Positions 5,376-62,905 of a DNA stretch of 64,000 nt are shown here, piece by piece (the first letter of the stretch is position 1; each line of letters begins with the position of its first letter). Source of the stretch: a virus. Below the pieces are notes generated by a model. The model had not been told where the DNA came from, ran no database searches, and saw only the letters and a list, made by a program, of their open reading frames with translations. Made by a program: the position numbers and the translations under genes. Location: IMG/VR virus record IMGVR_UViG_3300030098_006630, positions 33,176-97,175 of that record. One strand, 5' to 3'.

Positions 5376-5385
5376 GGAGAAAAAA

Positions 5386-5577
5386 ATGAAACTTTCAAAT
5401 CAAGGAATGGGCACTCTAATGATGTGCTTACAAAAATCATTATTAGAACAGAGCGATATTGTACCACTGTTACAGGAGCTTAACTTTGAAGTCGATGGAG
5501 ATGAAATTGTATGTACAAACCCTCCTAAAATTGAACTCAATACAACAGAATTTTTTCAAGAAACTGAGGATGCCTAA
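5386..5577 (+). CDS. Unrecognised 63-residue protein
   Basis: A small protein beginning at ATG 5386 behind a strong AAGGAG site at 5374-5379. Longer in-frame starts would run back into the dehydratase gene and lack such a site. It reads as a helical N-terminal half with two consecutive Met (TLMMCLQKSLLEQSD) and an acidic end. No domain is recognised. It overlaps the next gene by 8 bases. Confidence 0.65.
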   Translation: MKLSNQGMGTLMMCLQKSLLEQSDIVPLLQELNFEVDGDEIVCTNPPKIELNTTEFFQETEDA

Positions 5578-5851
5578 ATATCTTTATAAATGTACAAACA
5601 CTGAGTGTGCTAAGGTGTTTGAAATTGTTCATTCTATGAAAGAAAAGCTAAAATCGTGCTCTGAATGTCTTGATGATTGTGACAAAGAATTCCCTCTAGA
5701 GAGATTACCAGCTCTATCTATCTCTATTTCTAAGCCATTATCACCTACACAAGATAAAAAAGCAGGTACATTAGTGAAAAAGAATATAGAAGAATTTAGA
5801 AAAGCCCTAAAAGAAGAACAACAGAAGCTGCGAGAGGTGGAATATAAATGA
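5570..5851 (+). CDS. FmdB-like zinc-ribbon small protein
   Basis: A 93-residue protein starting MPKYLYKC, the opening typical of FmdB/CxxC_CxxC_SSSS-type regulatory zinc ribbons. Cys8 and Cys13 form the first knuckle. Cys30, Cys33 and Cys37 supply the second. The spacing in the first knuckle is wider than the usual CxxC. The C-terminal third is a charged helix. ATG 5570 is chosen because it overlaps the previous gene slightly and starts exactly at the family's conserved N-terminus. The family's biochemical role is poorly known, so function here is unknown. Confidence 0.7.
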   Translation: MPKYLYKCTNTECAKVFEIVHSMKEKLKSCSECLDDCDKEFPLERLPALSISISKPLSPTQDKKAGTLVKKNIEEFRKALKEEQQKLREVEYK

Positions 5852-6270
5852 TTAAAATAATTTTATCTTTATCTATAGTGGTTAATTTAGTTCTTATGGC
5901 ATTGGTTGTTGGATTGATGCCATTTTTATTATCTCTATCCATAGTGGTGATAGGCGTTTTAATTTGGTATATTTCCAAACTTACAAGTCAGCTAAATGAA
6001 ATAACAGATAATTTTGACGATTTTTATTCTAAAGTTCAAAACTATGAACAACATGTCGAGAATATACATGGCTTAGAGATGTTTTATGGAGATCAGACAC
6101 TTCAGAGCTTAATGAATCATTCGCGCACTATTTTAAATGATATTTATGATTTCCAAGAGAAATTTATTATGACCGAGGAAGAAGAACTTGAGCGAGAACC
6201 CGAAACCCCGCCGCAGGCGGAAAAAGAAAAATCTATACTTTACAGAGACTCACCAGAAGGCGATAGTTGA
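5848..6270 (+). CDS. Small membrane-anchored protein
   Basis: A 140-residue protein whose start overlaps the previous stop as ATGA. Residues 2-45 are strongly hydrophobic and can form one long or two short transmembrane helices. The rest is soluble, helical and acidic, ending in a Glu/Pro-rich stretch. No enzymatic motif is visible. It overlaps the sigma factor gene by about 83 bases. Co-transcription with the sigma gene is likely, but a functional link is not established. Confidence 0.68.
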   Translation: MIKIILSLSIVVNLVLMALVVGLMPFLLSLSIVVIGVLIWYISKLTSQLNEITDNFDDFYSKVQNYEQHVENIHGLEMFYGDQTLQSLMNHSRTILNDIYDFQEKFIMTEEEELEREPETPPQAEKEKSILYRDSPEGDS

Positions 6271-6889
6271 TTACGCCTTAACAGACTGTAGAAAGATTAG
6301 AACAGAACTTTATATTCAATATATTGGTCCTGTTTTCGATGAGATGGTAGATAAAATTACTTATACCTACAAGTTTACTACATTGCCAAACATCGAAGTT
6401 CTCAAGGACGAATGTAAGATCTGGCTTACAACCATCTTAGATAAGTTCGACCCAGAGAAAGGCTCCAAAGCCTTTTCTTATTTTAGTGTGATTACCAAGA
6501 ACTGGTTTATTCACAAGGTCAAAAAGAACTCTAAAAATCTTAAGAAAGAAGTAAATTACGAAGACGCAGTAGGTGAAATAGAGCAGCAATATTTATCTGA
6601 AGAAAACATTTATTTAGAAAAAAGAGAGAAATATGAATTTTGGCAATCGCTGATGAAAGAATTTGATATCTGGGAGAAACAAAACCTTAAAGAAAACGAA
6701 AGAAAAGTTTTAAATGCGATTATTGATCTTTTTGATAATGTTGATGAACTTGAAATTTTTAATAAAAAAGCTATTTATATGCATATAAGAGAATTAACTA
6801 ATCTCAACACGAAGCAAGTAGTAAATAACTTAAATCGACTTAGAGAAAAATATAGAAATTTCAAAAAAGAATATAATAAGGATATTTAG
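6188..6889 (+). CDS. 55: gp55-like late-transcription sigma factor
   Basis: A 233-residue protein resembling the T4-type sigma for late promoters. The segment KFDPEKGSKAFSYFSVITKN matches the conserved core of gp55, where T4 also has a KFDPEK segment followed by an Phe-Ala-Tyr-Phe stretch. It is followed by a basic region suited to RNA polymerase binding. The N-terminus is very basic (PRRRRKKK). The only start that keeps this region is TTG 6188, placed after GAGGAAGAA inside the upstream gene. An upstream in-frame stop at 6170-6172 rules out anything longer. The family binds host RNA polymerase core and recognises late promoters with the clamp and gp33, neither of which is in this window. The start codon is less sure than the family. 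Confidence 0.8.
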   Translation: MSENPKPRRRRKKKNLYFTETHQKAIVDYALTDCRKIRTELYIQYIGPVFDEMVDKITYTYKFTTLPNIEVLKDECKIWLTTILDKFDPEKGSKAFSYFSVITKNWFIHKVKKNSKNLKKEVNYEDAVGEIEQQYLSEENIYLEKREKYEFWQSLMKEFDIWEKQNLKENERKVLNAIIDLFDNVDELEIFNKKAIYMHIRELTNLNTKQVVNNLNRLREKYRNFKKEYNKDI

Positions 6890-7183
6890 ATGTCAGCGCC
6901 TGATTTAGAAAATTGCCTGGATGCAGCTTTAGAAAATGTTAAAAATGATAGAGCCTTGGCTTTAACATTATTGACTGATCTAATGAAATATATTCAAGCA
7001 GAAGAGGCTCGACATAAGGAAGTGGGACTTACAGCAGCAAAATATCTTGAAACCCTTCAGCGCTCTAATGAACAATTGGTGAAGTTGTCTGGCTTGTTAT
7101 ACAAAAAGAATAATCAAGAAGTAGGGTTATCAGCCGACGATAAGGAAGATTTATATTCTCTTATTCAAAGCAATGAGGGCTAA
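6890..7183 (+). CDS. Unrecognised 97-residue helical protein
   Basis: A small, all-helical, mildly acidic protein that starts on the base after the sigma gene stop codon and ends just before the hub gene. It contains LTLLTDLMKYIQAEEARH and SNEQLVKLSGLL, which look like two packed helices. I recognise no family. Its position directly after gp55 invites comparison with the gp33 coactivator, but I see no convincing sequence match and do not claim it. Confidence 0.65.
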   Translation: MSAPDLENCLDAALENVKNDRALALTLLTDLMKYIQAEEARHKEVGLTAAKYLETLQRSNEQLVKLSGLLYKKNNQEVGLSADDKEDLYSLIQSNEG

Positions 7184-7185
7184 AA

Positions 7186-10100
7186 ATGGGGACTAAATCT
7201 TTTCGTAGAGCGCTAGACGAACAAAGAAGAGGCGAGGATGGCTTAAGATTTGTCAGTCGAGCTTTAGATTTGCTAGCGCAGAAAGATGAGATTTTAGACC
7301 ATGGACCTTTTCTCGCTTTTGTATTGCGCGTAGAGATACAAGAAGGCGCAAATCCTAAAACAAGCGATAATGATTGGTTATCTATGCTCCAAGCTCAAGA
7401 AGCCACTTATCAATCATCAGCCGGCGGCACCAACAAGCAAGGGAAGCTACCTAATCCCGTCAGAGGAATAAAGAAGATGATTGTGACCGCACGGGTCGCG
7501 AAAGATATCTTTCCACGAACGAAAATAAGTTCAGCTCCTGGTTCGTTTCCTCAACCAGACATCCACGCATGGATTCCTTTCCCTCAACAATTTGGGAATA
7601 TAACTGAAGTAGACGCCGTTTCTAACTATTATATTTCTCAGCATACTCAATTTATTTCTGAGTCTGAATCTGTGTTTGAGTATGGAATCCCCGCCCCTGG
7701 AAGCTTGGTTCTGGTTGATTGGATAAAAAAAGGTCAAGATGGACCTCGTATGCCCATTTATAAGAAACCTTTACGAACGGGTCAATCGGGAACCAAATCG
7801 CTAAATCCTGATTGCGATAAAGAAAAAAATAAATCACAAACCAACCCTCCACCTGGTGGTAATAAAAAACAAAAAACACATCCTGGAAATAATAAAAAAG
7901 GCAAAGTGGCACCTCCACCGCCCGCCGGGTTTCGCAATTACCCTATATACAGTCACTTAACACCCCGTCTTCGCGGAAAAGGAATTATTCAGGGCAACGC
8001 TGCGAGCAAGAATTATTTTAAAAGCTCTCAAAGTCTTTTGAATAATATAAATTATCTTTTAGCTTCCATGCAGGTAATGCAATATTACGTTCAAGACCTG
8101 GCTTTATCAGGATGGATTCAAAAGCAATTTAAAATTTGTTCCACTTGGCCTGGTGTACGAGCGAAGGTATACTACACGGGAAACGGAGGAGCGACCTATA
8201 AGGGACACGCTAAAGCCTCTCAACACAAAACAGGTAAAGCGGTAGATTTTGGGATTAAAATCTTTCCCGTAATAGATAAAAATAACGCTCAACATCAACA
8301 AATAATGACGGATTATGTTACCGCTCATCATAAGAGAAGTTTCATGAAGTGGCGCAAAAAACGAAAATCGCGAAGACGCATGTCTGATGCCGACGCCTCG
8401 ATCGCCTTCGCAAAAAAAGGGGTAAAATTGAGCTATGATTTTGCTTATGCCGTCATAGCTTCTTTAGTTGTAAAAGGAAAAATTAAAGATGGAGGCTGGG
8501 GAACTTACAAAAATGGAAGTTCACGAACCGGCACCAATCGACCCGGTAAGACATATTACGATAGTTATAAAAATTTGTCTACCGTTCCAGTAGATTCTAC
8601 TCATTGGGATTACAAGAGTAATCGTCGCTGGATGTGGGTGGCAGTTGGAAGTTCGAAACGAGTACATTGGTTTAAAAAATATTGGAAAGCATGGCGTAAA
8701 AAGAATAATTTAACGAAATCCCAAGCCTCAAAGATGAAACTTTGGATGAAATTTCAGATGGATTCTAATTTTACCACACCCCAGGTTGATAGTTGGTACA
8801 ATGCTTTAACTGTTGGTGCTGGTGCTGCTTTTGGACAACCCATTCCATCTCCAGAGACAGTGTTAAAATATTGGACCGACAATAATTTAATTTTAAGAGT
8901 AAAACAGAAGCCGTATGATAAAAGCTCTTTAAAGATAAAGATCCCACCAGTGCTTCCAACACCGACTAGTACATCTCAAGTTCCGCCACCCGCATCAGCA
9001 ACTCCGCCCGTGTCTACTGCTACTGTGATGCCTCCTCCCAAACAAGGACCTGGAACTACAGGAGCACAACATAGAGCAATGTCTATGGGCAACGTAGGAA
9101 CTCCAGTAGGCGGTGGAGGTGGTGCAGCATCACCAGCCGCAGCCGCAGCAGCATCCGCAGGGGCAGGAGTAGGAAACACAGCGCCTGGAACGGCAGCATC
9201 TAAAGCAGGCGCAGCCGCCGCGAAGATTGCAACCAAGACAACTCCCAAAAAATCTACCCCATCACAACCAAATGCCGAGTGTGAAGAAAGCCAGACAAAA
9301 TCCACCTCTAAGAGTCAAACTTCAAAGAAAAATACAAATGCGAACAAAAATCAAATAGCACCTGGAAAATCTCAACCTGTAGCAAATGCTCCCGCAGGTA
9401 CAATACAATATCCTTCTCAAAAATTAGAGTGGCAAAAGAAGAAATATAATACGGCTTTGAAAGCCACCATGTTGGTAATCCATGAAACAGGCAAATCTAA
9501 ACCAGCTTACCACGTAGCTAAAGAAAACTTTGAACGCTCTCAAAAACGCAAAAAAGACGGCGCAGGGTGGATGCATTTTTATGGTGGTCGCGCAGGAGAA
9601 ATTATTCAACAGCTCCCGACCAATTCTCCTGCTCTGCATGCCAACTGGGCTAGCACTAACGCTATTGGTTATGAAGTCTGTAATCTTGGTGCAATCTCAT
9701 CCACATCATCACTTCTTAGTAAAACCAAGATAAATAAACTAGGGTATAAGATTTTAGGACCCGAGGGTAACGTTGGAGGTAAATTAGGAAACGGCAAGGT
9801 AAAATCTTTGGGATTGTATCCTGGAAAAAACTACGCCCTTCCTGGTGAAAAACAATGTCTAAGAGTATGGGAAACAATCAAGTGGCTCGTAGGAACATCC
9901 AAACCTCATCCAGAATTAGCATTAAGTATTGTTTTCCCAGCGGTTCTTAACGATACAGCCAAAACCATCGGAACAGGATTGCACAGTTCAAAACTCGGCG
10001 GCTCTTCAAAAGAAAAGGTTTTTGTATGGGGCAGGTTTAACCCACTTAAACCTCCTTTCTATAAAAATGGAAATTACATGTCTTCGTGGAAAAAAGGACA

Positions 10101-41876: not shown

Positions 41877-43061
41877 ATGTCTTTATACAAGTTTGGTCGA
41901 AATGATGTATTTGTAACAAATATAAAGACCTATCCAAAAGCAAATTTTTTAATTTATTCGGGTTCTTATTATTACAACCATGAAGCCCCTCAATCAGGCA
42001 CATGGTCCGACCCGGTAACTAACGTACCAGTAGGTAATCTTAGCTTATATGAGTATAATGTTGATCGCCCTGCGAATCAATTTATCTATCCTTTTGTAAC
42101 CAAGCAAGGCACTCTTACAGCTTTTAAAACCATATCTAAAGACTCTTTCATGGGTTTTGATTATGGCGATGTTATATCTGGTAGTTATCCTCTATCTGCC
42201 ACTATAGATAGAAAATTTTATTTAGAGTATACAGGCAAGCTTCCTATACCTACAACGGATGCAACTTATCGTCCGCATGTGATGGCTTTGAGAAACATCC
42301 TTAATGACAACCGAAGATTAAGCCCGCGTTATGCATACTCCGCTTCTTTTGGGGATAAAGACACTCAAATGATGACGATGATAAGTATTCCGTCCATTTT
42401 CTACGGGTCATCGATCAAGCAAGGCTCTGTAGATCTCAAATTTTACACCACAGGTTCTTTGGCAGGACAACTTATTGACTATTATAAGAATGGAGAGTTA
42501 ATTCAATATTCTGGGTCGGTTTCCGAAAATGACGGAAAAGTGGCAGGAGTTGTCCTCTATAATCAAGGAATTATTCTATTGACCGGCTCGTGGGCTATAT
42601 CTGGACATCAAGACAAATATAGGAATAGCGCGACTGATTATAATGCTGCTTGGGTTTATTATGGAGCCTCGGGTTCGGCTGGGAATGACTATCTTAGAGA
42701 ATCCAGTTATACTTTAGACTTTGAAGGATCTCAAACAATCCCGAGTCTCACTATGTTTGCACATGCTAAAAAGCATCAACTGAACAACTCTTCTAATCCT
42801 ACCTTTGTGGTGAGCAGTTCGTATAATACCAACATTATCACTGGCTCATCTAAATATATGGAATATGACAAAGTAAAGGTTAAAAATATTGTTAGTAGCT
42901 CTTATAATAATTATAGCGCGAGCTTTGCTCGACAAACTTACATTTCTGAAATAGGGATATATGACGAAGACAGAAATCTTCTGGCAATTGCTAAATTGGC
43001 AAACCCTGTTAAGAAAACTGAAGAAAACGACTATACATTCAAACTTAAGATAGACATTTGA
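41877..43061 (+). CDS. Structural protein, second of a paralogous pair
   Basis: A 394-residue protein. Its C-terminal part (HAKKHQLNNSSNPTFVVSS, EIGIYDEDRNLLAIAKLANP, then FKLKIDI) is homologous to the preceding gene's end. The N-terminal half is Tyr/Ser-rich. The start has only a weak site (AGGCGA). Its stop codon overlaps the TTG start of the RuvC-like gene as TTGA, so late structural and nuclease genes appear to be translationally linked here. Confidence 0.62.
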   Translation: MSLYKFGRNDVFVTNIKTYPKANFLIYSGSYYYNHEAPQSGTWSDPVTNVPVGNLSLYEYNVDRPANQFIYPFVTKQGTLTAFKTISKDSFMGFDYGDVISGSYPLSATIDRKFYLEYTGKLPIPTTDATYRPHVMALRNILNDNRRLSPRYAYSASFGDKDTQMMTMISIPSIFYGSSIKQGSVDLKFYTTGSLAGQLIDYYKNGELIQYSGSVSENDGKVAGVVLYNQGIILLTGSWAISGHQDKYRNSATDYNAAWVYYGASGSAGNDYLRESSYTLDFEGSQTIPSLTMFAHAKKHQLNNSSNPTFVVSSSYNTNIITGSSKYMEYDKVKVKNIVSSSYNNYSASFARQTYISEIGIYDEDRNLLAIAKLANPVKKTEENDYTFKLKIDI

Positions 43062-43594
43062 TTTTAGCCTTAGACATTTCAACCAGCATCACAGGAATAA
43101 CAATACTTGAAAAAGATGGAACCCTTGTTTATAATGATGCATGGGATACAAGAAAATATAAGAACTTTTTCGAGAAGGTAGAGCATGTTGAAAAAAATAT
43201 TAATAAGCTTTGTAGCAAACCTTGGAGAATCGAGAGAGTATATATCGAGCAATCTCTCCAGTCTTTCAGATCTGGATTCTCGTCGGCTAAAACTTTGTCA
43301 ACTCTCGCTAGTTTTAATGGGGTGGTGTCATGGTTGGTATATCGAATATTGCAGATTGAACCACAATACCTAGCCGCAACCTCCGCCCGTAAATTGTGCG
43401 GGATTAAAGTTCCCCGAGGAACGAAAGCAAAGCAAGTTGTTATTCAACATATTTTAGATAATGTCCCTGAAATCGAAATAGAATACACAAAGCAAAACAA
43501 CGTGAAGCCTCATTGTTACGATAAGGCAGACAGTTGGGTTATTGCTAAAGCAGGACTTATTCAATGTCAACAGGAAGAAAAACAGCAATCATAA
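43058..43594 (+). CDS. RuvC-like Holliday-junction resolvase/RNase H-fold nuclease
   Basis: A 178-residue protein starting at TTG 43058. The carboxylates of the RuvC active site are visible: Asp6 in LALDISTSITG, Glu64 in VYIEQSLQSF, and Asp155 and Asp158 in CYDKADSW, with the DxxD spacing of RuvC. These enzymes cut four-way DNA junctions. T4 instead uses gp49 (endonuclease VII), which is an unrelated fold. A role in resolving branched replicative DNA before packaging is likely. It overlaps the primase gene by 31 bases. No convincing ribosome binding site precedes the TTG, so translation may depend on coupling to the upstream gene. Confidence 0.8.
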   Translation: MILALDISTSITGITILEKDGTLVYNDAWDTRKYKNFFEKVEHVEKNINKLCSKPWRIERVYIEQSLQSFRSGFSSAKTLSTLASFNGVVSWLVYRILQIEPQYLAATSARKLCGIKVPRGTKAKQVVIQHILDNVPEIEIEYTKQNNVKPHCYDKADSWVIAKAGLIQCQQEEKQQS

Positions 43595-44505
43595 GGGATA
43601 TTTTCGGAGACTGTTATGGCTCCGGTTCCGAAATGCTGTTTCACTGTCCTAAATGCGAACACCACAAGCGCAAGCTCTCTATCAATATAGAGAAAGATTG
43701 CTGGAAGTGTTGGGTTTGTGATTGGTCAGGACGAAACTTAACCAAGATTGTACGTCGCTTTGGTGATGTCTATCACAAAAAGAAATGGTCAGAACTTGTA
43801 AACAAAGTCGAACTTGCTTCTTTTGAAGAGAAAATGTTTGCCGTTGAGGAGCCAGAACCAGAACAAAGAGTTGAACTTCCACAAGAATTTAAGTCGCTAG
43901 CTAACAAGAATGTCCCTCGTTCAGCAGGACAAGCCTTGCGTTATTTGCGGGACAGAGGAATAAAAAAAGATGACATTATAAGATGGAAGATTGGTTACTG
44001 TGAAGAAGGCGAATTTGCCCGCCGCATCATCATACCATCCTTTTCTTTAAATGGACATAGCAACTACTTTATTGCCCGTTCCTACGATGGGCACTGGAAG
44101 AGATACCTAAACCCCAAGGCATCCCGTAACATCGTTTTTAACCACCTTTTCTTGGACTTTGAGGACGATTTAACAATAGTCGAGGGAGCATTTGACGCAA
44201 TCGTAGCAGGACCTAACGCAGTTCCTCTTTTAGGCTCGACCCTTCGCGAATCATCCAGGTTGTTTCAAGAGATTGTAAGAAACGATACAACAGTCTACAT
44301 GGCACTTGACCCTGACGCTTATAAGAAAGAGACCAAAATTATTGAATTGCTTCTTAAATATGGAATAGAGGTTTACAAAGTCGATTTAGCAGAGTATAAT
44401 GATGTAGGCGAGATGCCTCCTAGTGTCTTTGTCGAAAGAAAACAAAACTCTTCTCTTGTAGAAGATAAATTCTATTTACTTGCTGAAAGGTTGTTTTCCT
44501 TATAA
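43564..44505 (+). CDS. DnaG-type DNA primase
   Basis: A 313-residue primase. The N-terminal zinc ribbon is FHCPKCEHH with CWVCDWSG (Cys28, Cys31, Cys49, Cys52), followed by a TOPRIM core. TIVEGAFDAIVAG gives Glu207, and ALDPDAYK gives Asp249 and Asp251, the metal-binding residues of TOPRIM. It is shorter than bacterial DnaG (about 580) because it has no helicase-interaction domain, which is normal for phage primases. It makes RNA primers for lagging-strand synthesis. The helicase and polymerase are not in this window. Confidence 0.88.
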   Translation: MSTGRKTAIIRDIFGDCYGSGSEMLFHCPKCEHHKRKLSINIEKDCWKCWVCDWSGRNLTKIVRRFGDVYHKKKWSELVNKVELASFEEKMFAVEEPEPEQRVELPQEFKSLANKNVPRSAGQALRYLRDRGIKKDDIIRWKIGYCEEGEFARRIIIPSFSLNGHSNYFIARSYDGHWKRYLNPKASRNIVFNHLFLDFEDDLTIVEGAFDAIVAGPNAVPLLGSTLRESSRLFQEIVRNDTTVYMALDPDAYKKETKIIELLLKYGIEVYKVDLAEYNDVGEMPPSVFVERKQNSSLVEDKFYLLAERLFSL

Positions 44506-44540: not shown

Positions 44541-44801
44541 ATGAAAATTACATCATCCCGACTTAAAGAAATTATTAAAGAAGAAGTTGAACTAGCCCTA
44601 AAGGAAGCCTGGAAAGGAGATCCTGAGATCGACCAAACCGGAGAATACGCAGATAAATCAAAAGAAGAGCTTTGTAAGATGCGAGATGATTTAAAGAAAA
44701 AAGAAAAACGAACCAAAGCCCAATCTAAAAAACTTAGACAAATAAATTTTGCTTTGCGTTCTAAACAAAAAGGACCCAAGTTTGGAAAGGTAGATTGTTA
44801 A
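44541..44801 (+). CDS. Small basic protein with a putative capsid-targeting N-terminus
   Basis: An 86-residue, highly charged protein preceded by AGAGGC. It begins MKITSSRLKE/IIKEEV. The first ten residues end in Leu-Lys-Glu, which fits the (L/I)xE consensus of T4 prohead protease sites. T4 internal head proteins carry a ten-residue capsid-targeting peptide of the same design, beginning MKT and ending IAE. The rest is lysine-rich helix (DDLKKKEKRTKAQSKKLRQ) with a Gly/Lys tail. It could be packaged in the head and injected with the DNA. It is a tandem partner of the next gene. Function beyond that is unknown. Confidence 0.65.
   Translation: MKITSSRLKEIIKEEVELALKEAWKGDPEIDQTGEYADKSKEELCKMRDDLKKKEKRTKAQSKKLRQINFALRSKQKGPKFGKVDC
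44560..44589 (+). repeat. 30-base direct repeat, copy 1
   Basis: This stretch, from GACTTAAAGAAATTATT through GAAGTTG, is identical to 44821-44850. The copies are exactly 261 bases (87 codons) apart, in the same frame, at the same place in two adjacent genes. This suggests a tandem duplication of the gene start or recent gene conversion. Confidence 0.85.
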
Positions 44802-45149
44802 ATGAAAATCACAAAACAGAGACTTAAAGAAATTATTAAAGAAGAAGTTGTCAAAATCTTGGAAGGTAAAAAAACTAATGCCTCTGGAACCAAGGATAAA
44901 CAAGGCGGATGGCAAAGCGGCGTAATCGCTGAGCCGGTGTTCGAAGAAGAAGAACTAGATGAAACTTCTGCCATGGGCGGAACTCCTACAGGCGCAGTCG
45001 CGGGATATTCGGGACCCGTGAAGAAAGAAGAGAAGCTTTCTCCCAAACAAAGCAAAGAGATGGACACCGACAAGGACGGCGACATCGATGCAAAAGACTT
45101 AAAGACCCTTCGACTTAAAGAAGATGGCTGGGACGAGCCTATATCTTGA
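44802..45149 (+). CDS. Small protein with capsid-targeting-like N-terminus and EF-hand loop
   Basis: A 115-residue protein starting on the base after the previous stop. It begins MKITKQRLKE/IIKEEV, nearly the same as its neighbour, with a ten-residue peptide ending in Leu-Lys-Glu. Residues 88-99 (DTDKDGDIDAKD) form a complete EF-hand or dockerin-type calcium-binding loop, with acids at positions 1, 3, 5, 7, 9 and 12. The middle is Gly/Glu-rich. The reading frame ends at TGA 45147-45149 but stays open for another 30 codons. A packaged or prohead-associated role is inferred from the N-terminus. Confidence 0.68.
   Translation: MKITKQRLKEIIKEEVVKILEGKKTNASGTKDKQGGWQSGVIAEPVFEEEELDETSAMGGTPTGAVAGYSGPVKKEEKLSPKQSKEMDTDKDGDIDAKDLKTLRLKEDGWDEPIS
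44821..44850 (+). repeat. 30-base direct repeat, copy 2
   Basis: This is the second copy of the identical 30-base stretch at 44560-44589. It encodes the same RLKEIIKEEV segment at the start of the next gene. Confidence 0.85.
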
Positions 45150-45280: not shown

Positions 45281-48200
45281 ATGAAAATTGCTCATATTAG
45301 TGATATTCATATTCGTAATTATCGTTATCATTACGAGTATGAACAAGTGTTTGAACAACTCTATACTAAACTTAAAGAGTTAAAACCAGACATCATTGTC
45401 AATACCGGCGATACAGCCCACACCAAACTAAATCTTAGCCCGTCTTATTTTGACATGGCTGCGAGGATGTTTGAGAAGTTGGCTGATATTGCTCCGTATC
45501 ATATTATCTTGGGTAACCACGATCTTAATCTTCGTAACCTTTCCAAGATTGATGCCGTTTCCCCCCTTGTTGCGGCACTCGACCACCCTAACATTCACTT
45601 TCACAAGTATTCTGCGGAAGTAGATGTTGGCGGTGGTATTTGTTTTCATGTCCTGTCTATTGTAGACGAAGAAAACTGGACACTTCCAACAGATATGGAT
45701 AAAGTACACATAGCTCTTTTCCACGGCTCTGTTGCTGGTGTTCAAACTTCTACTGGCTGGACAATGACCCACGGCGACATTAGCTTAGACCGCCTTACAG
45801 AATACGATTATGCCCTTCTTGGCGACATTCACAAGCCTAATCAAGAGTTAGATAAAGAAGGTCGTATTCGCTATGCTGGCTCTCTTGTCCAACAAAACTT
45901 TGGAGAATCAGAAGAAAAAGGATTTCTTCTTTGGGATATTAAAGATGCTGATACTTTTAAAGTAAAGCATCACGCCCTTGAAAACCCCAAGCCTTTTGTA
46001 ACTATCAATCTAACCAAAAAGGGAAAGATTCCCACAAAGGCACAAATTAAAGAAGGTTGTCGCCTTCGTTTGGTTTCTAGTGTTAATCTTCCGATAGATG
46101 TCATTAAACGTACCATTGACGTTGCGAAGACCAAATATAAGCCAGAAACAGTAAATTATTATTCTAATGTCTTCGGGAGAAAAGATAAGAATGAGATTAT
46201 CAATTCGGTTTTTAAAGATGACCTAAGAAGCTTAGAAGTTCAACAAGATCTCATAACTGATCATTTGATAGATTACGAACTTGAAGAAGACATGCTAAAT
46301 CAAATCTTCGACCTTAACCAGAAGTATAATAAACTTGTGACCGAAGAAGAAGAGGTAAGCCGCAATATCCACTGGTCAGTAAAAAACTTTGGATGGGATA
46401 ATCTGTTCAATTATGGTGAACAAAATTCTATTGATTTTGAGAAGTTAGAAGGAATTGTAGGTATTTTCGGTAAGAATTTCTCTGGCAAGTCTTCTATTAT
46501 TGATTCTTTATTATACACAATGTTCAACACGACTTCCAAGAATGAAAGAAAGAATCTGAATGTCATTAATCAAAACAAAGATAATGGTGCTGGAACGATT
46601 GAAATAGACATTGGAACGAACACTTATAGAATTGAACGTTCCAGCGAGAAATATGAAAAGAAACTTAAAGGAAATGTCTCTACCGAAGCACGCACAAATG
46701 TAGAGTTTACCAAAATAGATAACCTAACAGGAGAAGAAACGCCTCTTAATGGAGACACCCGAGCACAAACCGATAAAAACATTCGCTCTGTGTTTGGCTC
46801 AATAGATGATTTTCTTCTTACCTCGATGGGATCCCAGGTAGATTCTCTTGCTTATATCAACGAGGGTTCAACGAAAAGAAAAGAGATTCTTGCAAAGTTT
46901 CTTGACCTTGAAGTCTTTGAGAAGAAGTTTAAGAAAGCAAAGGATGACGCCGCTGATTTGCGCGTTGCCATCAAGAAAATGAAAGGAAGAGAATTTGGAA
47001 CTGAACTAAAAGAGAAAAGAAAAGAACTGGCTATTAATGAAGCAAAGATTGATGTAAGACGCAGAGAGTGTGATGAGCTAAAGAGGCAAGTAGTAGAATT
47101 TAGAGACTCTCTATCAGCCTTGCAGGAAAAAATCAACTCCATTCCTACGGAAGTCATTCAGATTAAAAATGTTTTAAAACAAATAAAAGACAAAAGCACA
47201 CAACTTGAAACTATTTCCAAAAAAGAAAAGCAATCTTTAGAAGAGATTGAGAGTAAGGTGGAGTTTATCCACAAGTTTGAAAAGTTTCAGAATATATTCA
47301 ACATTGATGACGCCACAGAGAAAAAAGAAAAAGCCGATGCTTTAATCAGCGAACTTGAAACTCTTGAAAAAGATATTGAGGTAACATCCTTAAAGTATCA
47401 AAATCAAGTGAAAAAGGTATCTCTTTTGAATGAAGTTCCCTGTGGCTCTGAATATTCGTCATGTAAGTTCATTAAAGACGCCTACAAGGCATCGGAAGTA
47501 ATAGAGAATACCAAGGTCGCCTTAAATGACTTAACTCTCTTAAAACGCCAAAAAACTGCTCATTTGGATGATTTAGAATATGAACAAAATAACGAGTATA
47601 TTGAGAAGTATAATAATGCGAAAGTAAAGAAGAATCAATACGAAAAAGAAATAAAAGATATTAAACTGGAAATTCAGAAAAACAAAACTGCAAGTTTAAA
47701 ACTCAACAATGAAATCAACGACTTAATTGAAAAAAGAGAAGAGTATGAAGAGCATAAAGAAGCTATTGAGAACTTAGAAACTCTCACGCAGGAAAAAAAG
47801 CGAATTGAAAAAATCATCACCACTAACGAAGCAGCTTGCGAGCGCTGCAACGAAGGGTTGTTAGAGCTTTATAAATCTAATGGCTTTCTAGAACAACAAT
47901 ACAAACAAATTGAAATTGAACAGAAAGAATGCGAGAATCTAAACACCAGTTATTCTGTCTATGATTTATACATGAAAGCGGTTCACTCTAACGGCATTCC
48001 GTCCAATCTTATTAATCGTAGCCTTCCTGTTATTAATCAGGAGATACAAAAGATTTTGTCTAATGTGGTAGATTTTGAGGTTATGTTCGAGAACGAAGAT
48101 ACAAAACTCGATATTTTGATTAAACATCCCAAGTATGATGCTCGCCCTATTGAGATGGGCTCTGGCGCTGAAAAGACAATTGCTGCGATGGCTATACGCC

Positions 48201-48433
48201 TAGCGTTGTTGAATGTTTCAACACTCCCAAAAGGAGATATTTTTATTCTTGACGAACCAGGGACAGCCCTAGATGAGGAAAATATGGAAGGTTTTATTCG
48301 TATTTTGGATATAATTAAGAGTGAGTTTAAAACAATTTTCCTTATTTCCCACCTAGAGGTCTTAAAAGACATTGTGGATAAACAAATAATCATTAACAAA
48401 GAAGATGGTTATGCTAAAGTAAATGAAAGTTAA
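45281..48433 (+). CDS. Fused Mre11-Rad50 (SbcD-SbcC, gp47-gp46) recombination nuclease
   Basis: A 1050-residue protein joining two enzymes that are usually separate. Residues 1-340 are an Mre11/SbcD phosphoesterase: SDIH (Asp8, His10), NTGDTAH (Asp44), LGNHD (Asn79, His80), LFHGS, and GDIHKPN. From about 375 it is Rad50/SbcC: Walker A GIFGKNFSGKSS at 394-405, a long coiled coil of about 540-900, signature GSGAEKTIAA, Walker B IFILDEPGT with Asp991 and Glu992, and the final SHLE. In the coiled coil, Cys721/Cys728 or Cys853/Cys856 could form a zinc hook. T4 gp46/47 resect double-strand ends for recombination-dependent replication and host DNA breakdown. No ribosome binding site precedes ATG 45281, and an in-frame stop rules out an earlier start. 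Confidence 0.93.
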   Translation: MKIAHISDIHIRNYRYHYEYEQVFEQLYTKLKELKPDIIVNTGDTAHTKLNLSPSYFDMAARMFEKLADIAPYHIILGNHDLNLRNLSKIDAVSPLVAALDHPNIHFHKYSAEVDVGGGICFHVLSIVDEENWTLPTDMDKVHIALFHGSVAGVQTSTGWTMTHGDISLDRLTEYDYALLGDIHKPNQELDKEGRIRYAGSLVQQNFGESEEKGFLLWDIKDADTFKVKHHALENPKPFVTINLTKKGKIPTKAQIKEGCRLRLVSSVNLPIDVIKRTIDVAKTKYKPETVNYYSNVFGRKDKNEIINSVFKDDLRSLEVQQDLITDHLIDYELEEDMLNQIFDLNQKYNKLVTEEEEVSRNIHWSVKNFGWDNLFNYGEQNSIDFEKLEGIVGIFGKNFSGKSSIIDSLLYTMFNTTSKNERKNLNVINQNKDNGAGTIEIDIGTNTYRIERSSEKYEKKLKGNVSTEARTNVEFTKIDNLTGEETPLNGDTRAQTDKNIRSVFGSIDDFLLTSMGSQVDSLAYINEGSTKRKEILAKFLDLEVFEKKFKKAKDDAADLRVAIKKMKGREFGTELKEKRKELAINEAKIDVRRRECDELKRQVVEFRDSLSALQEKINSIPTEVIQIKNVLKQIKDKSTQLETISKKEKQSLEEIESKVEFIHKFEKFQNIFNIDDATEKKEKADALISELETLEKDIEVTSLKYQNQVKKVSLLNEVPCGSEYSSCKFIKDAYKASEVIENTKVALNDLTLLKRQKTAHLDDLEYEQNNEYIEKYNNAKVKKNQYEKEIKDIKLEIQKNKTASLKLNNEINDLIEKREEYEEHKEAIENLETLTQEKKRIEKIITTNEAACERCNEGLLELYKSNGFLEQQYKQIEIEQKECENLNTSYSVYDLYMKAVHSNGIPSNLINRSLPVINQEIQKILSNVVDFEVMFENEDTKLDILIKHPKYDARPIEMGSGAEKTIAAMAIRLALLNVSTLPKGDIFILDEPGTALDEENMEGFIRILDIIKSEFKTIFLISHLEVLKDIVDKQIIINKEDGYAKVNES

Positions 48434-50436: not shown

Positions 50437-52011
50437 ATGTCATATGAGCTAACCAAAAAACAAATATTATCTGAGATTGTTAAAGCGGGAAAAGATCCAT
50501 CTTATTTTATAAACAACTACGCCAAAATCGCTCACCCGATGCGAGGATTAATTCCTTTTAAGTTGTATCCCTTTCAGGAGCAATTACTTGATGATTTTAA
50601 CGATCATAGATTTAATGTTATCTTAAAAGCAAGACAGCTCGGTATTTCAACTATTACCGCAGCATATATTGCTTGGATGATGATGTTCCACCGAGATAAA
50701 AATATTCTTGTTATCGCTACAAAGTTTGGAACAGCCGCAAACCTTGTAAAAAAAGTAAAATCTATTATCAAGTATCTTCCTTCCTGGATGAAGATCGCCA
50801 ATATTCATATTGATAATAGAACTTCTTTCGAGCTTTCGAATGGCTCTCAGATTAAAGCTTCTTCAACTTCTTCTGATGCAGGTCGTTCCGAAGCTTTGTC
50901 TCTTTTAGTTGTTGATGAGGCTGCACACGTAGACGGATTAGATGACCTTTGGACGGGTCTATACTCTACTCTATCGACTGGAGGACGGTGCATCGCCCTC
51001 TCTACCCCAAATGGCTGCGGCAACTGGTTTCATCAGACCTATGTAGACTCTACAGCAGAAAAGAATGATTTTTATCCCACAAAGTTAATGTGGGATGTAC
51101 ACCCAGAGCGCAATCAAGAGTGGTTTGAGAAAGAAACTAGAAATATGTCTCGTAGACAAATCGCTCAAGAATTAGAGTGCAATTTCAATATGTCAGGAGA
51201 AACCGTTTTTCATCCTGATGATCTAATTTATATCGCGGATAGTGCAAGAGAACCCAAATATAAAACGGCTTTTGATAGAAACTTTTGGATTTGGGAAGAA
51301 TATCAAAAGGATTCCACTTATCTTATTTCAGCTGATGTAGCCAGAGGCGATGGAAAGGATTATTCTACATTTCATGTTGTTAAAATAGAGACAAACGAGG
51401 TGGTAGGAGAATATCAAGGAAAGTTAACACCTGATATTTTTTCTGGTATACTTTATGATGCGGGAAAGGAATATGGCGACTGCATGATTGTTGTTGAGAA
51501 CATGGCTGCTGGACACACAGTATTAAACAAACTAATTGAGCGCGATTATCCCAACGTATATCATTCTTACAAATCCACTCATGAGTATGTCGATCAAGTG
51601 ACTGCTGAGTATTCTAACAGCGCAGTCGCAGGTTTCACAACCTCTAGCAAGACTCGTCCTCTAATAATCGCAAAAATGGAAGAATTCATTAGAAATAAAC
51701 TACTTACGATATATTCGACAAGATTACTTGAGGAGATGAAAACATTCATTTGGCACAATGGTCGTCCACAAGCTATGAGAAAGTATAACGACGACTTGGT
51801 TATGGCTTGCGCGATAAGCTGCTGGGTGAGAGATACAGCTTTTGAAACAAACAAGAGAGAGCTTGAATATAAAAAGGCTTTCTTAGGCGCAATGACAACA
51901 ACAAAAAAAGAAATGAACACAACAATACCTGGAATGCAGGGTTACAAATCAAACAAGATGAAGAAAATAGAGAAGCAATACAAAGACTACAACTGGCTTT
52001 TAAAAGGTTAA
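50437..52011 (+). CDS. 17: Terminase large subunit, gp17 family
   Basis: A 524-residue packaging motor and nuclease. The ATPase domain has an atypical Walker A, LKARQLGIST at residues 63-72, in the R-Q-L-G form used by T4-type terminases, and Walker B LLVVDEA with Asp160 and Glu161. The C-terminal RNase H-like nuclease shows ADVARGDGKDYS (Asp300), MIVVENMAAG, and NDDLVMA (Asp452/453). Length is slightly below T4 gp17 (610). It translocates DNA into the prohead and cuts concatemers. The gap before it has no good ribosome binding site. Confidence 0.93.
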   Translation: MSYELTKKQILSEIVKAGKDPSYFINNYAKIAHPMRGLIPFKLYPFQEQLLDDFNDHRFNVILKARQLGISTITAAYIAWMMMFHRDKNILVIATKFGTAANLVKKVKSIIKYLPSWMKIANIHIDNRTSFELSNGSQIKASSTSSDAGRSEALSLLVVDEAAHVDGLDDLWTGLYSTLSTGGRCIALSTPNGCGNWFHQTYVDSTAEKNDFYPTKLMWDVHPERNQEWFEKETRNMSRRQIAQELECNFNMSGETVFHPDDLIYIADSAREPKYKTAFDRNFWIWEEYQKDSTYLISADVARGDGKDYSTFHVVKIETNEVVGEYQGKLTPDIFSGILYDAGKEYGDCMIVVENMAAGHTVLNKLIERDYPNVYHSYKSTHEYVDQVTAEYSNSAVAGFTTSSKTRPLIIAKMEEFIRNKLLTIYSTRLLEEMKTFIWHNGRPQAMRKYNDDLVMACAISCWVRDTAFETNKRELEYKKAFLGAMTTTKKEMNTTIPGMQGYKSNKMKKIEKQYKDYNWLLKG

Positions 52012-57503: not shown

Positions 57504-60224
57504 ATGCCATCATTTATTGGAGCAGGAAAGTTTTTAGGCTATTGGAACGCGAGCACAAATAGTGGCTCTGCGGCTGATTTAGCACCTCCTTTGCAACCTC
57601 TTTTGGAAACCGGCGGTTATGACAGCAGTACAAGTCTAACGCCTTCTGTAGGAGACTACTGGCAAATAAACACTGCCGGAAACAACAGCGGAACGGCTAT
57701 TGATGGTATTACTGTATGGACCGTAAACGATTGGATGGTCTATACAGAAGGAAACAAGTGGGAAAGGTTAAGCGCTAGCGATACTGTAGCAGCGGTAATG
57801 GTTGGTGATGCATCTTTCCAAGGATTAAAAGACGCCCTATTAGCATCAGGAAGCGCCACCGCAGTTGCTGCTACCCACCCAGGCGGCAAAGAGGTTACGT
57901 TCGTCGCTTCTAACAACGATGGCAAGTATTTTGACGGTGACCCTCGACTTACTTATGATACGAACGCCGGAACTCTTTATGTTACTGGAAATATTTTTCT
58001 TACCGGTACTCTAGAAGCAAGCATTTTTCACACTACTACTGTTTCTTCGAGCGTTATTTACGAGAGCGGCTCTACAAAGTTTGGTGACACCAACGATGAT
58101 ACACACCAATTCACGGGCTCGGTTTATGGAAACTTGGGAATCACATCGTCTTTAGGAATGTCTGCTTCTTATTTTATGGGCGACGGTTCTCGATTAACCG
58201 GCATCCAAGGCGGCGGCTCCTCTTTGGGTAATCCTGCTTATGTAAACGCTGCTTCCTCTAGCGTGCCTTTCTGGGGCGCAGTCGATGGCTCTGGCGAATA
58301 CGGTCTTACAGGATCAGGAAGGTTTAACTTCTACTCAGGCAGCTCAGAACTTCAAGTTACCGGCAATATCCGCGCCTCAAACATGTATGTTGGAGAATAT
58401 ATTTACCACGAAGGTGACGCAGATACTTTTGTTTTTGTCAGTGACGATCAATGGATTCTACGCGCTGGTGGACAAAACATGCAACGCTGGCAGGTCGGTG
58501 GGTCTCAAGATGTTGTAGCTATTAACGATCAAAATAATGATGTAGACTTTGTGGTAGAGACAGACACTTCAGACCGCACCTTCTGGGTTGACGGCGGAAG
58601 CAACAACGTAGGAATTAAATGCGCTCCATCCGGCACATCACCGGCTCTAACCGTCTCCGGTTCAACCTTACTGGGAGAAAGTCAAACTAGCATTCACCAG
58701 TTTACAGGATCCGCTAGGTTCTCTAATTCTATCTCGGTGGGGAATGGAAGCTCAGTCGATGGAATTTATCACTGGGATGATGCGGATACTCATATTAAGT
58801 TTGAAGACGATGGAATAAACTTTACAGCCGGCGCAGCCACTCTGTTGAGCCTAGACCAAGGAACTCAAGATACAGCCATAATAGGCGCTACTGGCACAGA
58901 TGTAGACTTTAGAGTTATAACATCTGGCGAAAATCATGCTTTGTTTGTCGAAGGCTCCTCCAACAAAATATCAATGGGATACACATCGCCTACTCAAGCA
59001 AAGCTTTCTGTCTCAGGGTCTTCGCAATTTGGTAGACCAGACGGACATAACGACGAGCATTGGTTCTCTGGCTCTGTATTCGTCACGGACGACCTTCACG
59101 TAGAAGATAAAATCTATGGACTAGGAGATGCCGACACCTACATTGATTTTAATACTGACAATAAGATATCTATTGCTGCTGGCGGCTTCACAATGGCGGA
59201 GTTTGTCAGGCACGCCTCTTCAGATGATTACGTTGAAATAGGAAGCGACTCTTCCTCTGGAGGATATGACATAGATGTCCGCATAGCCACTCCAAATGAC
59301 GACAGAACACTATGGGTCGATGCGGGAAGCAACAATGTAGGTATTAAGTGCGCCCCCTCTGGCACCGTCGCCGCGCTTACCGTGTCCGGTTCGAGCGTTT
59401 TTGGTTCTGGGAGTATTAGCACTCACGAGTTTACTGGATCTATCTTTACCGACAGTAGTATTCATTTTGCGAATAGATTAGTGAACTGGGCTGATGATGA
59501 CACATACATTCAATTTGATGACGATGCAATGTCTTTTGTAGTAGGAAACGCTGCATTTATTAGCCTTTCTGAGGCAGCTGATGATACCATTACTATTAAC
59601 AATAGCGGCGCTGATATAGATTTTCAATTGAAATCTAACGGAGCTACAGGAGGCGGCGCAGGAACTAATTTAACTCATACTCTTTTCGTTGAAAGCTCTA
59701 CAGCCAGAGTCGGTATCGCTGAATCTTCACCTTCTGCTCAACTTGATGTTTCAGGTTCAGTTCGTTTCGGTATCGATTCCTCTACTTACAACGCCATGTC
59801 AGGAACCTTAGAACTGACAGGAACAATCGGAGTAAATACTCCAGCTACTGATTATTCATTATCCTTGCCTAACACAGATACCGTGGCTGGTAGAGGCATG
59901 GCGTATGCGTGGTCCACTTATTCTTCGGCTCGATATAAGGAAGGGGTAGCTACAATGTCTAATCCTATCGAAACAGCAAAAAAGCTTCGAGGGGTTGAAT
60001 TTACTTGGAAAGAATCTGGGTATCAAGATTTTGGCTTTATTGCAGAAGAAGTGGGTAAAGTATTGCCACAGTTAGTTTCTTACGAAGCAGACGGAAAATC
60101 AGCAGTTGGCATGGATTATGCCAAGATCACTTCTCTTTTGGTGGAGTGTGTCAAAAAACAGCAAACTCAACTTGAAACTCAAGAAAAACGTATCAAACTT
60201 TTAGAGAAAAAGGTAAAAACTTAA
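57504..60224 (+). CDS. Tail fibre or spike with S74 intramolecular chaperone
   Basis: A 906-residue fibre. The N-terminal 100 residues (GDYWQINTAGNNSGTAIDGI, then VNDWMVYTEGNKWERL) form a small domain frequent at phage fibre bases. The middle holds four repeated modules ending LTVSGSSxFG, each followed by a DADTYIxF-type strand. The C-terminus is the S74 chaperone of endosialidase-type fibres: YSSARYKEG with Ser808 and Lys812 as the predicted self-cleavage pair, then GFIAEEVGKVLPQLVSYEAD, MDYAKITSLLVE and a trimeric coiled coil. Host receptor binding is the expected role. Target is unknown. Confidence 0.86.
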   Translation: MPSFIGAGKFLGYWNASTNSGSAADLAPPLQPLLETGGYDSSTSLTPSVGDYWQINTAGNNSGTAIDGITVWTVNDWMVYTEGNKWERLSASDTVAAVMVGDASFQGLKDALLASGSATAVAATHPGGKEVTFVASNNDGKYFDGDPRLTYDTNAGTLYVTGNIFLTGTLEASIFHTTTVSSSVIYESGSTKFGDTNDDTHQFTGSVYGNLGITSSLGMSASYFMGDGSRLTGIQGGGSSLGNPAYVNAASSSVPFWGAVDGSGEYGLTGSGRFNFYSGSSELQVTGNIRASNMYVGEYIYHEGDADTFVFVSDDQWILRAGGQNMQRWQVGGSQDVVAINDQNNDVDFVVETDTSDRTFWVDGGSNNVGIKCAPSGTSPALTVSGSTLLGESQTSIHQFTGSARFSNSISVGNGSSVDGIYHWDDADTHIKFEDDGINFTAGAATLLSLDQGTQDTAIIGATGTDVDFRVITSGENHALFVEGSSNKISMGYTSPTQAKLSVSGSSQFGRPDGHNDEHWFSGSVFVTDDLHVEDKIYGLGDADTYIDFNTDNKISIAAGGFTMAEFVRHASSDDYVEIGSDSSSGGYDIDVRIATPNDDRTLWVDAGSNNVGIKCAPSGTVAALTVSGSSVFGSGSISTHEFTGSIFTDSSIHFANRLVNWADDDTYIQFDDDAMSFVVGNAAFISLSEAADDTITINNSGADIDFQLKSNGATGGGAGTNLTHTLFVESSTARVGIAESSPSAQLDVSGSVRFGIDSSTYNAMSGTLELTGTIGVNTPATDYSLSLPNTDTVAGRGMAYAWSTYSSARYKEGVATMSNPIETAKKLRGVEFTWKESGYQDFGFIAEEVGKVLPQLVSYEADGKSAVGMDYAKITSLLVECVKKQQTQLETQEKRIKLLEKKVKT
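58552..59790 (+). repeat. Repeated fibre modules
   Basis: Four related modules in the first fibre share a pattern of FVE or WVD, NVGI, LTVSGS and a final FG. Two of them, near 58570-58670 and 59290-59396, share GSNNVGIKCAPSGT and differ by only a few residues. The others are more diverged. Confidence 0.75.
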
Positions 60225-60370: not shown

Positions 60371-62905
60371 ATGGCTGCACCTTTTGATGCAAATGCTGTC
60401 ACTATTTATGGACAGTATTCACAATTCGAACTACTCACAAGTGGTTCCTCCATGCCCGCCGCATCACAGTCGGTTTTACGACTTTTTGCTCAGGATGATG
60501 GAAAACTTTATTATATGCCCGCAGGAGCTTCTGGCTCTGCGGCGAAAGAAATTGCTACCGGCGACGGTGGTCTTTCTTTTGCTCTAACACAAGGCGCTGG
60601 TATCGCGTCTTTTACCTATAATGGATCTGCTGCTGCTACAGTCGCAGTTGACATTAATGGTCAAACGGCTACCACAACGGCTGCTGACGTTGATGAAATG
60701 CTCATCGACGACGGTGCTGGTGGTACTATCCGCAAAATTACTCGTGCTAACTTCCTCGGAAGTGCTCTTGCTAGCCTCGACGCTGGTATTGATGTTAACG
60801 GTGCGAACTTCGCGGTTTCCACCGCAGGTGCTGTTACTTCGGTAAGCACTATCTCTGGTTCAGGTGCTGGTTCTTTCGGAAGTTTAACTCTCGATGGAGT
60901 CGCAAACCTACAAAGTGCTGGTATTAGCAATGCCGGTGCCATTGCAGGAGTTACAACTATTGATGCAACCGGTCTTGCCTCGCTCGACGGCGGTATTGAT
61001 GTAAATGGTAACCTAACAGTCAGCACTGCTGGCGCGGTTGCCGGTGCCACAACCGTTTCTGGTTCGGGACGCTTCTCGGCTCAAGCTCTTACTGTCCACG
61101 GCGGCGCAAACTTGCAAAGCAGTGGTATCGCTAATGCCGGAGCAATCGCCGGTGCTACTACTATCTCGGGTTCTTCAACTATCTCTGGTTTCGACCTCGA
61201 TATGGAAGGTTCGGGTAACTTCCTCGGAGACCTCACCGTTCAGGGTAATCTTGTCGTTGAAGGTAAGAGAACGTTGCTCGATACTGTAGATTTGTTGATT
61301 GAAGACAATCTCGTTGAGCTAAACAGAGGAACAGGTGCTTCGGGTACTGCTAGTACAAACGCTGGCGCAGGTTTCTTTATTTCTGGCTCTAATGCCGATC
61401 GTGGTATCAGTATTACTGGTGCTTCGGATGGTGGACGCTTAAAAGTGTCTGGTTCTTCGGTTGTAGGCGCTGGTTACGATGTTGTCGCTGGTGGTGATTA
61501 CGCCATTGACGGTACTTCGGTTCTTACCGCAACTACACTTGGTTCTGGTGTTGTTAACTCTAGCTTGACTTCTGTTGGTTCGCTTACGAGTTTAACTGTT
61601 GCTGGTACATTGACTGCCAATGGCGATGTAGACCTCGGTAACGCCGCAACAGACAGCATTACCTTCACAGGTCGCGCTGACTCGGATTTCTTACCAATCG
61701 CTGACAGTGCTCATGATCTTGGATCTTCGGCGCTTCAATGGGCTGAACTCCATGTAGATACTGCCAACATTGACCAACTTGGCTCGGCTCTTGATGCTAA
61801 TGGCGAAAACATCACTAACGTCGGTACATTCGAAGTTGATGGTGGAGCTACATTCAACGGAGCCGTTACTCTTGGTGATGCTGCTTCTGATGTAATCACT
61901 GTTACTGGGCAACTGTCTTCATCGGTCGGAATGTTGATTAATGATAATCAACTTTTAAATTTCGGTGATGATGCTGACGCTGCCATTAAGTTCACCACTG
62001 CAAGTGGTGGAGCACTGGTTATCAGTGGTTCTTCTCAAGGTATTGCTACTGTTGGAGCACTCGCTCCAAGCGCAGGTAGCCTTTTCGATATTGGAAATTC
62101 TACCTTTAAGTATAGAAATCTCCACATCGATGCTTTTGGTTCCAACTGGACCAATGCTGGTCGTACTGTAGCTGACCTTGGTAATGTGACAACTGTTGAT
62201 ATCAACGGTGGTTCAATCGACGGAACAGTTATCGGCGCTGCAAGTGTTGCTAATGGTTCTTTTGCCGCCATCGTCGGTACAACAGCTACTTTAAGCAGCA
62301 CTCTTACTGCTAATGGCGATGTAGACCTCGGAAATGCTACAAGTGATACAATCACCTGCACAGGTCGTTTTGACTCGGATCTCGTGCCTTCTACTGATAG
62401 TGCTCGTGACTTAGGAACAAGCGCACTTCAGTTCCGCACAGCTTACGTTGATGAAGTTGAGTCCGCTACTGGCGTTCTTAACCTTACAACGGCTGCTGGT
62501 GTTGAAATTGCTGGTACAGCAAATTCTGACGGTTACCTTTTACAGCTTCCAACAACTGGAGACGCTCGTGCTCGTGCTTGGGTTACTTACTCATCGGCTC
62601 GTCATAAGACCAACGTCAAGACAGTTAAGAATCCAATTGATACTGTGAAGTCTCTTCGCGGTGTTACTTACGACTGGAAAGGAACTGGACAGGCTGACGT
62701 CGGGTTTATCGCTGAAGAAGTTGGAGCAATCGTTCCTGAAGTTGTGTCCTTCGGTAAAGACGGACGCGCAGAAGGTATTGACTACGGTCGTTTAACTTCT
62801 GTCCTCGTTGAAGCTATGAAACAACAACAGAGCGAGATTGAGAAGCTACAAAATGTAGTTCAAAATCTTACTTCTGAGCAACCTAGCCTCTTAGAAGCCA
62901 AGTAG
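60371..62905 (+). CDS. Second tail fibre or spike with S74 intramolecular chaperone
   Basis: An 844-residue Gly/Ala/Ser/Thr-rich protein with GGGAGAA before ATG 60371. The body has short repeats (NAGAIAGVTTI, NAGAIAGATTI) and two copies of TLTANGDVDLGNA followed by TGRxDSD. The C-terminus is an S74 chaperone: YSSARHKTN with Ser742 and Lys746, GFIAEEVGAIVPEVVSFG and DYGRLTSVLVEAMKQQQ. It is homologous to the end of the first fibre, but the N-terminus is unrelated. Codons differ from its neighbours, with many GGT, GCT, CTC, GAC, AAC and CGT, which suggests very high expression or transfer. Confidence 0.85.
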   Translation: MAAPFDANAVTIYGQYSQFELLTSGSSMPAASQSVLRLFAQDDGKLYYMPAGASGSAAKEIATGDGGLSFALTQGAGIASFTYNGSAAATVAVDINGQTATTTAADVDEMLIDDGAGGTIRKITRANFLGSALASLDAGIDVNGANFAVSTAGAVTSVSTISGSGAGSFGSLTLDGVANLQSAGISNAGAIAGVTTIDATGLASLDGGIDVNGNLTVSTAGAVAGATTVSGSGRFSAQALTVHGGANLQSSGIANAGAIAGATTISGSSTISGFDLDMEGSGNFLGDLTVQGNLVVEGKRTLLDTVDLLIEDNLVELNRGTGASGTASTNAGAGFFISGSNADRGISITGASDGGRLKVSGSSVVGAGYDVVAGGDYAIDGTSVLTATTLGSGVVNSSLTSVGSLTSLTVAGTLTANGDVDLGNAATDSITFTGRADSDFLPIADSAHDLGSSALQWAELHVDTANIDQLGSALDANGENITNVGTFEVDGGATFNGAVTLGDAASDVITVTGQLSSSVGMLINDNQLLNFGDDADAAIKFTTASGGALVISGSSQGIATVGALAPSAGSLFDIGNSTFKYRNLHIDAFGSNWTNAGRTVADLGNVTTVDINGGSIDGTVIGAASVANGSFAAIVGTTATLSSTLTANGDVDLGNATSDTITCTGRFDSDLVPSTDSARDLGTSALQFRTAYVDEVESATGVLNLTTAAGVEIAGTANSDGYLLQLPTTGDARARAWVTYSSARHKTNVKTVKNPIDTVKSLRGVTYDWKGTGQADVGFIAEEVGAIVPEVVSFGKDGRAEGIDYGRLTSVLVEAMKQQQSEIEKLQNVVQNLTSEQPSLLEAK
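61605..62370 (+). repeat. Internal DNA repeat in second fibre
   Basis: AATGGCGATGTAGACCTCGG occurs near 61619 and again near 62311. The flanking sequence is also similar, encoding LTANGDVDLGNA followed by a TGRxDSD pattern. This suggests a domain duplication of about 230 codons spacing. Confidence 0.7.

Follow-up and report, generated by a model that had tools for sequence, protein, structure and literature searches.

In E. coli SbcCD and the archaeal Mre11-Rad50 complexes, nuclease and ATPase are two subunits, the hook is of the CXXC type and the fifth metal-binding motif of the nuclease reads GHxH. In T4 and the cyanophages, the corresponding proteins gp47 and gp46 are also products of separate genes, in the order Mre11 then Rad50 and separated by at least one small ORF. 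A fused form is known as well. Mre11/Rad50 fusions from bacteria, plasmids, eukaryotes, one Bacillus phage and Mimivirus, where the protein is R555, were reported by Yoshida, Claverie and Ogata in 2011; R555 has an Asp at the position of His206 of Pf Mre11 (PMC3175470). R555-like genes were abundant in aquatic viral fractions, phage primases occurred on the same scaffolds, and it was proposed that some of these aquatic genes may belong to phages (PMC3175470).

The DNA analyzed here, referred to as the window, is a stretch of 64,000 nucleotides (positions 33,176 to 97,175) of the 97,175-bp IMG/VR virus record IMGVR_UViG_3300030098_006630. It encodes an R555-type fusion, one polypeptide in which a Mre11-like nuclease domain is followed in one frame by a Rad50-like ATPase, an Asp (D182, in GDxH) stands at the place of Pf His206, and the relatives are aquatic and phage-associated with nearby primase genes. 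The two proteins also differ, in that R555 has 1351 residues and belongs to a giant virus, whereas the present protein has 1050 residues, a shorter coiled coil and a CX6C hook, and belongs to a bacteriophage with T4-type head genes. This comparison was made through giant-virus relatives as stand-ins for R555, and the similarity extends over the full length (Foldseek, with the Tupanvirus protein as the top viral match: E 5.5e-65, 23% identical across 1322 alignment columns).

The protein shares domains, motifs and fold with SbcCD and archaeal Mre11-Rad50, although the coiled coil of SbcC is longer. With T4 and the cyanophages it shares the gene order, the T4-type phage background and a presumed role in recombination-dependent replication; however, those phages have two genes where the window has one, GHxH where it has GDxH, a CXXC hook, and a position on the opposite side of a branch with a support of 100. 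A named relative, WWT39521.1 of the Microcystis phage Mel-JY01, is of the same family, fused and adjacent to a primase-like gene, but it is only ~30% identical and carries a CXXC hook; its annotation, "AAA domain containing protein", does not mention the fusion. Because this kind of fusion was published in 2011 (PMC3175470), its novelty is modest, and the parts that are new to the specialist, as far as could be found, are a hook variant and a re-split form. No papers on Mel-JY01, on non-CXXC Rad50 hooks or on re-split Mre11-Rad50 were found in the open-access literature, an absence that carries little weight.

Domain Organization of the Fused Protein

The fused ORF starts with ATG and is free of stops over its 1050 codons. 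Its parts, given by position in the window, are as follows.

45281..48433 (+), Mre11-Rad50 fusion ORF, single frame (Pfam, PHROG; four other environmental contigs, L002-L005, 78-89% identical over the full length)
45281..45976 (+), Mre11/SbcD phosphodiesterase domain, residues 1-232 (Pfam Metallophos, conservation, Foldseek to SbcD/Mre11 cores)
45977..46216 (+), Mre11 capping domain, residues ~233-312, with probable boundaries from AlphaFold secondary structure
46217..46351 (+), putative Rad50-binding helix-loop-helix (RBD), residues ~313-357, assigned by position (AlphaFold, conservation)
46349..46370 (+), fusion junction or linker, residues 357-364 (length constancy; split Rad50s of other phages start near here)
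46370..46906 (+), Rad50 N-lobe with Walker A (N399..GK403S), residues 364-542 (Pfam, PDB sequence matches, conservation)
46910..47983 (+), antiparallel coiled coil, residues 544-901 (AlphaFold helices), the fastest-evolving part
47441..47464 (+), apical hook Cys721-X6-Cys728 (PCGSEYSSC) replacing CXXC (alignment; C728 kept in 164/166)
47993..48430 (+), Rad50 C-lobe with signature SGxEK, Walker B, D-loop and switch His (PDB sequence matches, conservation)

Profile and structure searches agree on this order. Pfam Metallophos covers residues 1-185 (E 4e-13) and Metallophos_2 residues 1-221, while AAA_29 matches weakly at residues 382-418 and SMC_N matches residues 769-1040 with E 7e-9 and 35.9 bits, below its curated cut-off of 40. 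The PHROG family phrog_77, "SbcC-like", spans residues 181-1049 (E 1e-54), and among PDB sequences, those of Rad50 match the C-terminus and those of SbcD/Mre11 match residues 137-261. The AlphaFold model of the single chain, built from 70 sequences, has a mean pLDDT of 83.7 and a pTM of 0.50. Its best Foldseek matches in the PDB are Mre11-Rad50 complexes, along with SbcCD structures, and those among viral models are full-length repair or fusion proteins of Tupanvirus, Harvfovirus and other giant viruses.

The catalytic residues of both halves are intact. The Mre11 half has all five phosphoesterase motifs (D8xH10, GD44xxH47, GN79H80D81, H148 and GD182xH184), followed by the capping domain, with the predicted elements E239-243, E261-266, H272-286 and E290-295, and by the Rad50-binding helices, in which R316, D317, Q321, N346 and N350 are conserved. 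The Rad50 half has Walker A (GKN399FSG402K403S404), the Q-loop Q519, the signature S961G962xE964K965, Walker B (D991E992), the D-loop (L997D998) and the switch His H1024. These residues are invariant or nearly so in an alignment of 166 sequences, composed of the window protein, Mel-JY01, LR756501 and 163 IMG/VR loci; the fifth Mre11 motif is GDxH rather than the canonical GHxH, with D182 in 166/166. The chain thus contains the whole of an Mre11/SbcD nuclease and, after it, the whole of a Rad50/SbcC ATPase. The initial annotation, which had read both sets of motifs in one phage frame and set this against the separate gp47 and gp46 genes of T4 and its relatives, is borne out in both respects.

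Substitution rates estimated with NG86 against close relatives give dN of 0.02-0.11 with saturated or near-saturated dS in Mre11, the junction and the Rad50 heads, and dN/dS is ~0.03-0.06 in the Mre11 part. Both halves and the junction are therefore under purifying selection, and the coiled coil is the segment that changes fastest.

At the junction, AlphaFold places helices at residues 318-328 and 336-356, which we read as the RBD, directly before the first Rad50 strand (364-373), after which come the two long arms of the coiled coil and then the C-lobe. The linker is ~7 residues long, is constant within 1 residue in 165/166 sequences and contains no disordered stretch, and 86-87 residues separate the RBD from Walker A, again in 165/166. 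Since the Rad50-binding helices lead straight into Rad50 strand 1 across a short linker of invariant length, the model points to the normal geometry being enforced in cis, with the RBD probably packed against the coiled-coil root within the same chain. The suggestion, made at the outset, that fusion may alter how the nuclease sits on the ATPase head finds no support so far.

Distribution of the Fused Family

How widespread such fusions are had been left as a question for a search of phage genomes, and the answer is that they are very widespread. In IMG/VR, more than 580 relatives were confirmed by each of two alignment-based scans, and the best 80 from each scan were taken. The frame is continuous across 163 IMG/VR loci, in Mel-JY01 and in a 735-kb phage, which shows the fusion to be genuine and common among aquatic phages. 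Apart from incomplete contigs and the 1202-aa LR756501 protein, the members are ~1030-1065 aa long.

An interrupted member occurs in a 484-kb phage (LR756508.1, positions 4944-9169; L007), where an insert of ~1 kb lies in the Mre11 half just after GDIHK. The insert carries an ORF (5665-6582) for an HNH/TnsA-like, that is, nuclease-like, endonuclease, and a search of the insert with Rfam gave no intron and nothing convincing.

A search of bacterial and archaeal genomes gave 14 matches, most of them to short contigs from metagenome bins; several of these carry the phage primase or terminase and are therefore probably binned phage. One candidate bacterial carrier, the "WOR-3 chromosome" CP070664.1 (L186), was rejected; its piece of this phage family is interrupted and lies among runs of masked bases, beside unrelated bacterial genes, and the assembly is probably chimeric.

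Hook Variants and Probable Re-Split Forms

CXXC is a highly conserved motif of the Rad50 hook (PMC9569753). The tip of the window protein instead reads P-C-G-S-E-Y-S-S-C, with CX6C formed by Cys721 and Cys728, whereas 92 relatives have CXXC at the same place. In all, 69 of the 166 sequences (~42%), the window protein included, have CX6-7C and 5 have other tips, and a downstream [FV][IV]KDA motif is often shared. Because CX6C stands in place of CXXC, we assign the protein to the R555-type fusion family and not to canonical Rad50, although all the other Rad50/SbcC motifs are present. On the tree, the hook type changes 5 times. The sisters L020 and L054 have different hooks; they are 30% alike at the tip, against ~80-90% both in the N-terminal part of Mre11 and in the C-lobe of Rad50. 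The split form of Moorella phage MTATph1 also has CX7C. The CX6-7C hook is new as far as could be found, and zinc-mediated dimerization through it is putative.

A first tree combined 59 fused representatives with 8 split pairs, from T4, three cyanophages and Staphylococcus, Providencia, Vibrio and Moorella phages, and all fused representatives fell together on the same side of a branch supported at 100% (SH-aLRT). A second, careful tree added six pairs from rumen-type jumbo phages; in it, the two ORF translations of the interrupted LR756508.1 gene were joined end to end as one row, which has no bearing on the re-split forms.

In these jumbo phages, probably derived from the rumen (L189, L194, L200 and L202-L209), the Mre11 core and an RBD-Rad50 protein are two separate, distant ORFs of ~277 aa and ~790-808 aa, lying a few to ~14 kb apart. 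Their Rad50 ORFs start with ~115 residues that other split Rad50s lack. A 44-column stretch of this extension matches the fused RBD helices (hhalign E 1e-5, probability 81%), and the extension is predicted, with moderate confidence (mean pLDDT 73), to form strand-helix-strand-three helices, repeating residues 261-356 of the fused protein. In the second tree, the rumen-type pairs cluster with LR756501, a fused protein (98/97), within the fused side (100/98). The simplest reading of these data is that a fused gene came apart anew within the capping domain of Mre11, a break that would have left the Rad50-binding helices on Rad50. Overall, it is likely that this family has rebuilt its Mre11-Rad50 more than once, through the 5 swaps between CXXC and CX6-7C and through the re-split in rumen phages, where the nuclease core alone became one subunit. 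If so, the part that must stay attached would be the contact between helices and coiled coil, not the whole of Mre11.

Genomic Context and Proposed Function

Three neighbors in the window give the fused gene its context.

43058..43594 (+), RuvC-like Holliday junction resolvase (phrog_159, E 4e-9)
43564..44505 (+), DnaG-like TOPRIM primase, the conserved upstream neighbor (phrog_47, E 1e-32)
50437..52011 (+), T4-type large terminase subunit, which places the phage (Pfam, PHROG)

In 154 loci the primase precedes the fused gene on the same strand, at a median gap of 102 bp; LR756501 excepted, it was found in all loci whose upstream sequence reaches 2.5 kb or more. The RuvC-like resolvase is found further upstream in 68 loci, and 64 have the T4-type terminase downstream. 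Between primase and fusion in the window, two small adjacent ORFs (44541-44801 and 44802-45149) start nearly alike (MKIT..RLKEIIKEEV), perhaps through tandem duplication; this pair was not found at the loci of relatives. Elsewhere in the window, 57504-60224 and 60371-62905 encode tail-fibre-like proteins, both of which have a Peptidase_S74 chaperone domain close to the C-terminus. The window contains no tRNA and nothing at the Rfam gathering score.

The source record is a 97-kb fragment in which no RecA was found, and the pathway context is therefore drawn from relatives. The large sister genomes tested (~183-191 kb) each have one fused gene and one RecA/UvsX, and no separate gp46/gp47-like Mre11 or Rad50 was found in them or in the source record. 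Two genomes carry a second small phosphoesterase, of 258 and 306 aa; in one of these (G001), phrog_100 matches the fused gene only. By terminase, the closest cultured phage is Flavobacterium phage immuto (NC_055915, L179; 45%), in which Mre11/Rad50 was detected neither fused nor split, suggesting that the function is replaceable; there, a PD-(D/E)XK exonuclease follows the primase. A 907-aa ORF of immuto labeled "NadR" was considered as a Rad50 and rejected, having only a weak nucleotidyltransferase-like match.

Taken together, these observations make it highly probable that the fused gene is the only Mre11-Rad50 found in its phage, an R555-type single chain that would act as a cis-tethered, M2R2-like dimer and resect ends for RecA/UvsX-dependent replication. 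Two copies would dimerize through Mre11-Mre11 contacts, ATP-dependent engagement of the Rad50 heads and the apical Cys hook, and the single chain would lock the stoichiometry at 1:1. Entry of the Rad50-binding helices into Rad50 strand 1 would tether each nuclease in cis to its own coiled-coil root in the normal geometry. The ATP-gated nuclease may then trim double-strand ends, probably including hairpins and blocked ends, so that the phage RecA/UvsX could load for recombination-dependent replication, by analogy with T4 gp46/gp47. We infer this resection role, the most likely one, from the sister genomes, with their one fused gene, one RecA/UvsX and no separate Mre11 or Rad50, and the adjacent RuvC-like resolvase and primase fit the same recombination pathway.

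Other explanations deserve consideration. As the source is a metagenomic contig, an assembly or sequencing error could have joined two adjacent genes; however, purifying selection runs through the junction and the same continuous frame recurs at 163 independent environmental loci and in 2 phages of an annotated collection, which rules out a sequencing error and leaves the likelihood of an artefact negligible. Nor do relatives show a stop and start at the native junction, the other outcome that the initial annotation had held against a true fusion, as none occurs among the 166 aligned sequences. A single gene might still yield two products if an internal start, or protease cleavage in the linker, released Mre11 and Rad50, and some members do have in-frame start codons near residues 338-353. 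No start codon is conserved there across the 166 sequences, though, 80 of which have no in-frame ATG anywhere in residues 326-371, and the constant, ordered linker described above also argues against cleavage, so that two products are very improbable.

The function rather than the product could also be different, with the fusion serving mainly in host takeover or counter-defence, by degrading host DNA or attacking foreign DNA, and not in replication-linked resection. In T4, host-DNA degradation is annotated as requiring gp46/gp47, just as recombination is, and the Rad50 half of the fusion is weakly similar to the defence ATPases LmuB and Mad3. These matches, however, cover the SMC-like part common to all such ATPases, and the fixed position beside primase and RuvC-like genes across the family, together with RecA/UvsX and one fused copy in the same genomes, argues for replication; a role chiefly in takeover therefore appears unlikely, if somewhat less so than two products. 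End resection for recombination-dependent replication, by a nuclease tethered in cis to the ATPase of its own chain, is the reading that we prefer.

Conclusion

In many aquatic T4-type phages, the end-processing machine is made as one polypeptide, and the prediction made in 2011 of R555-like genes in aquatic phage fractions now has long genome contexts. A one-chain Mre11-Rad50 of fixed stoichiometry would be convenient for experiments, requiring one plasmid and one protein. In addition, the natural hook swaps and the re-split form allow tests of whether CXXC is needed and of which Mre11-Rad50 contacts matter.
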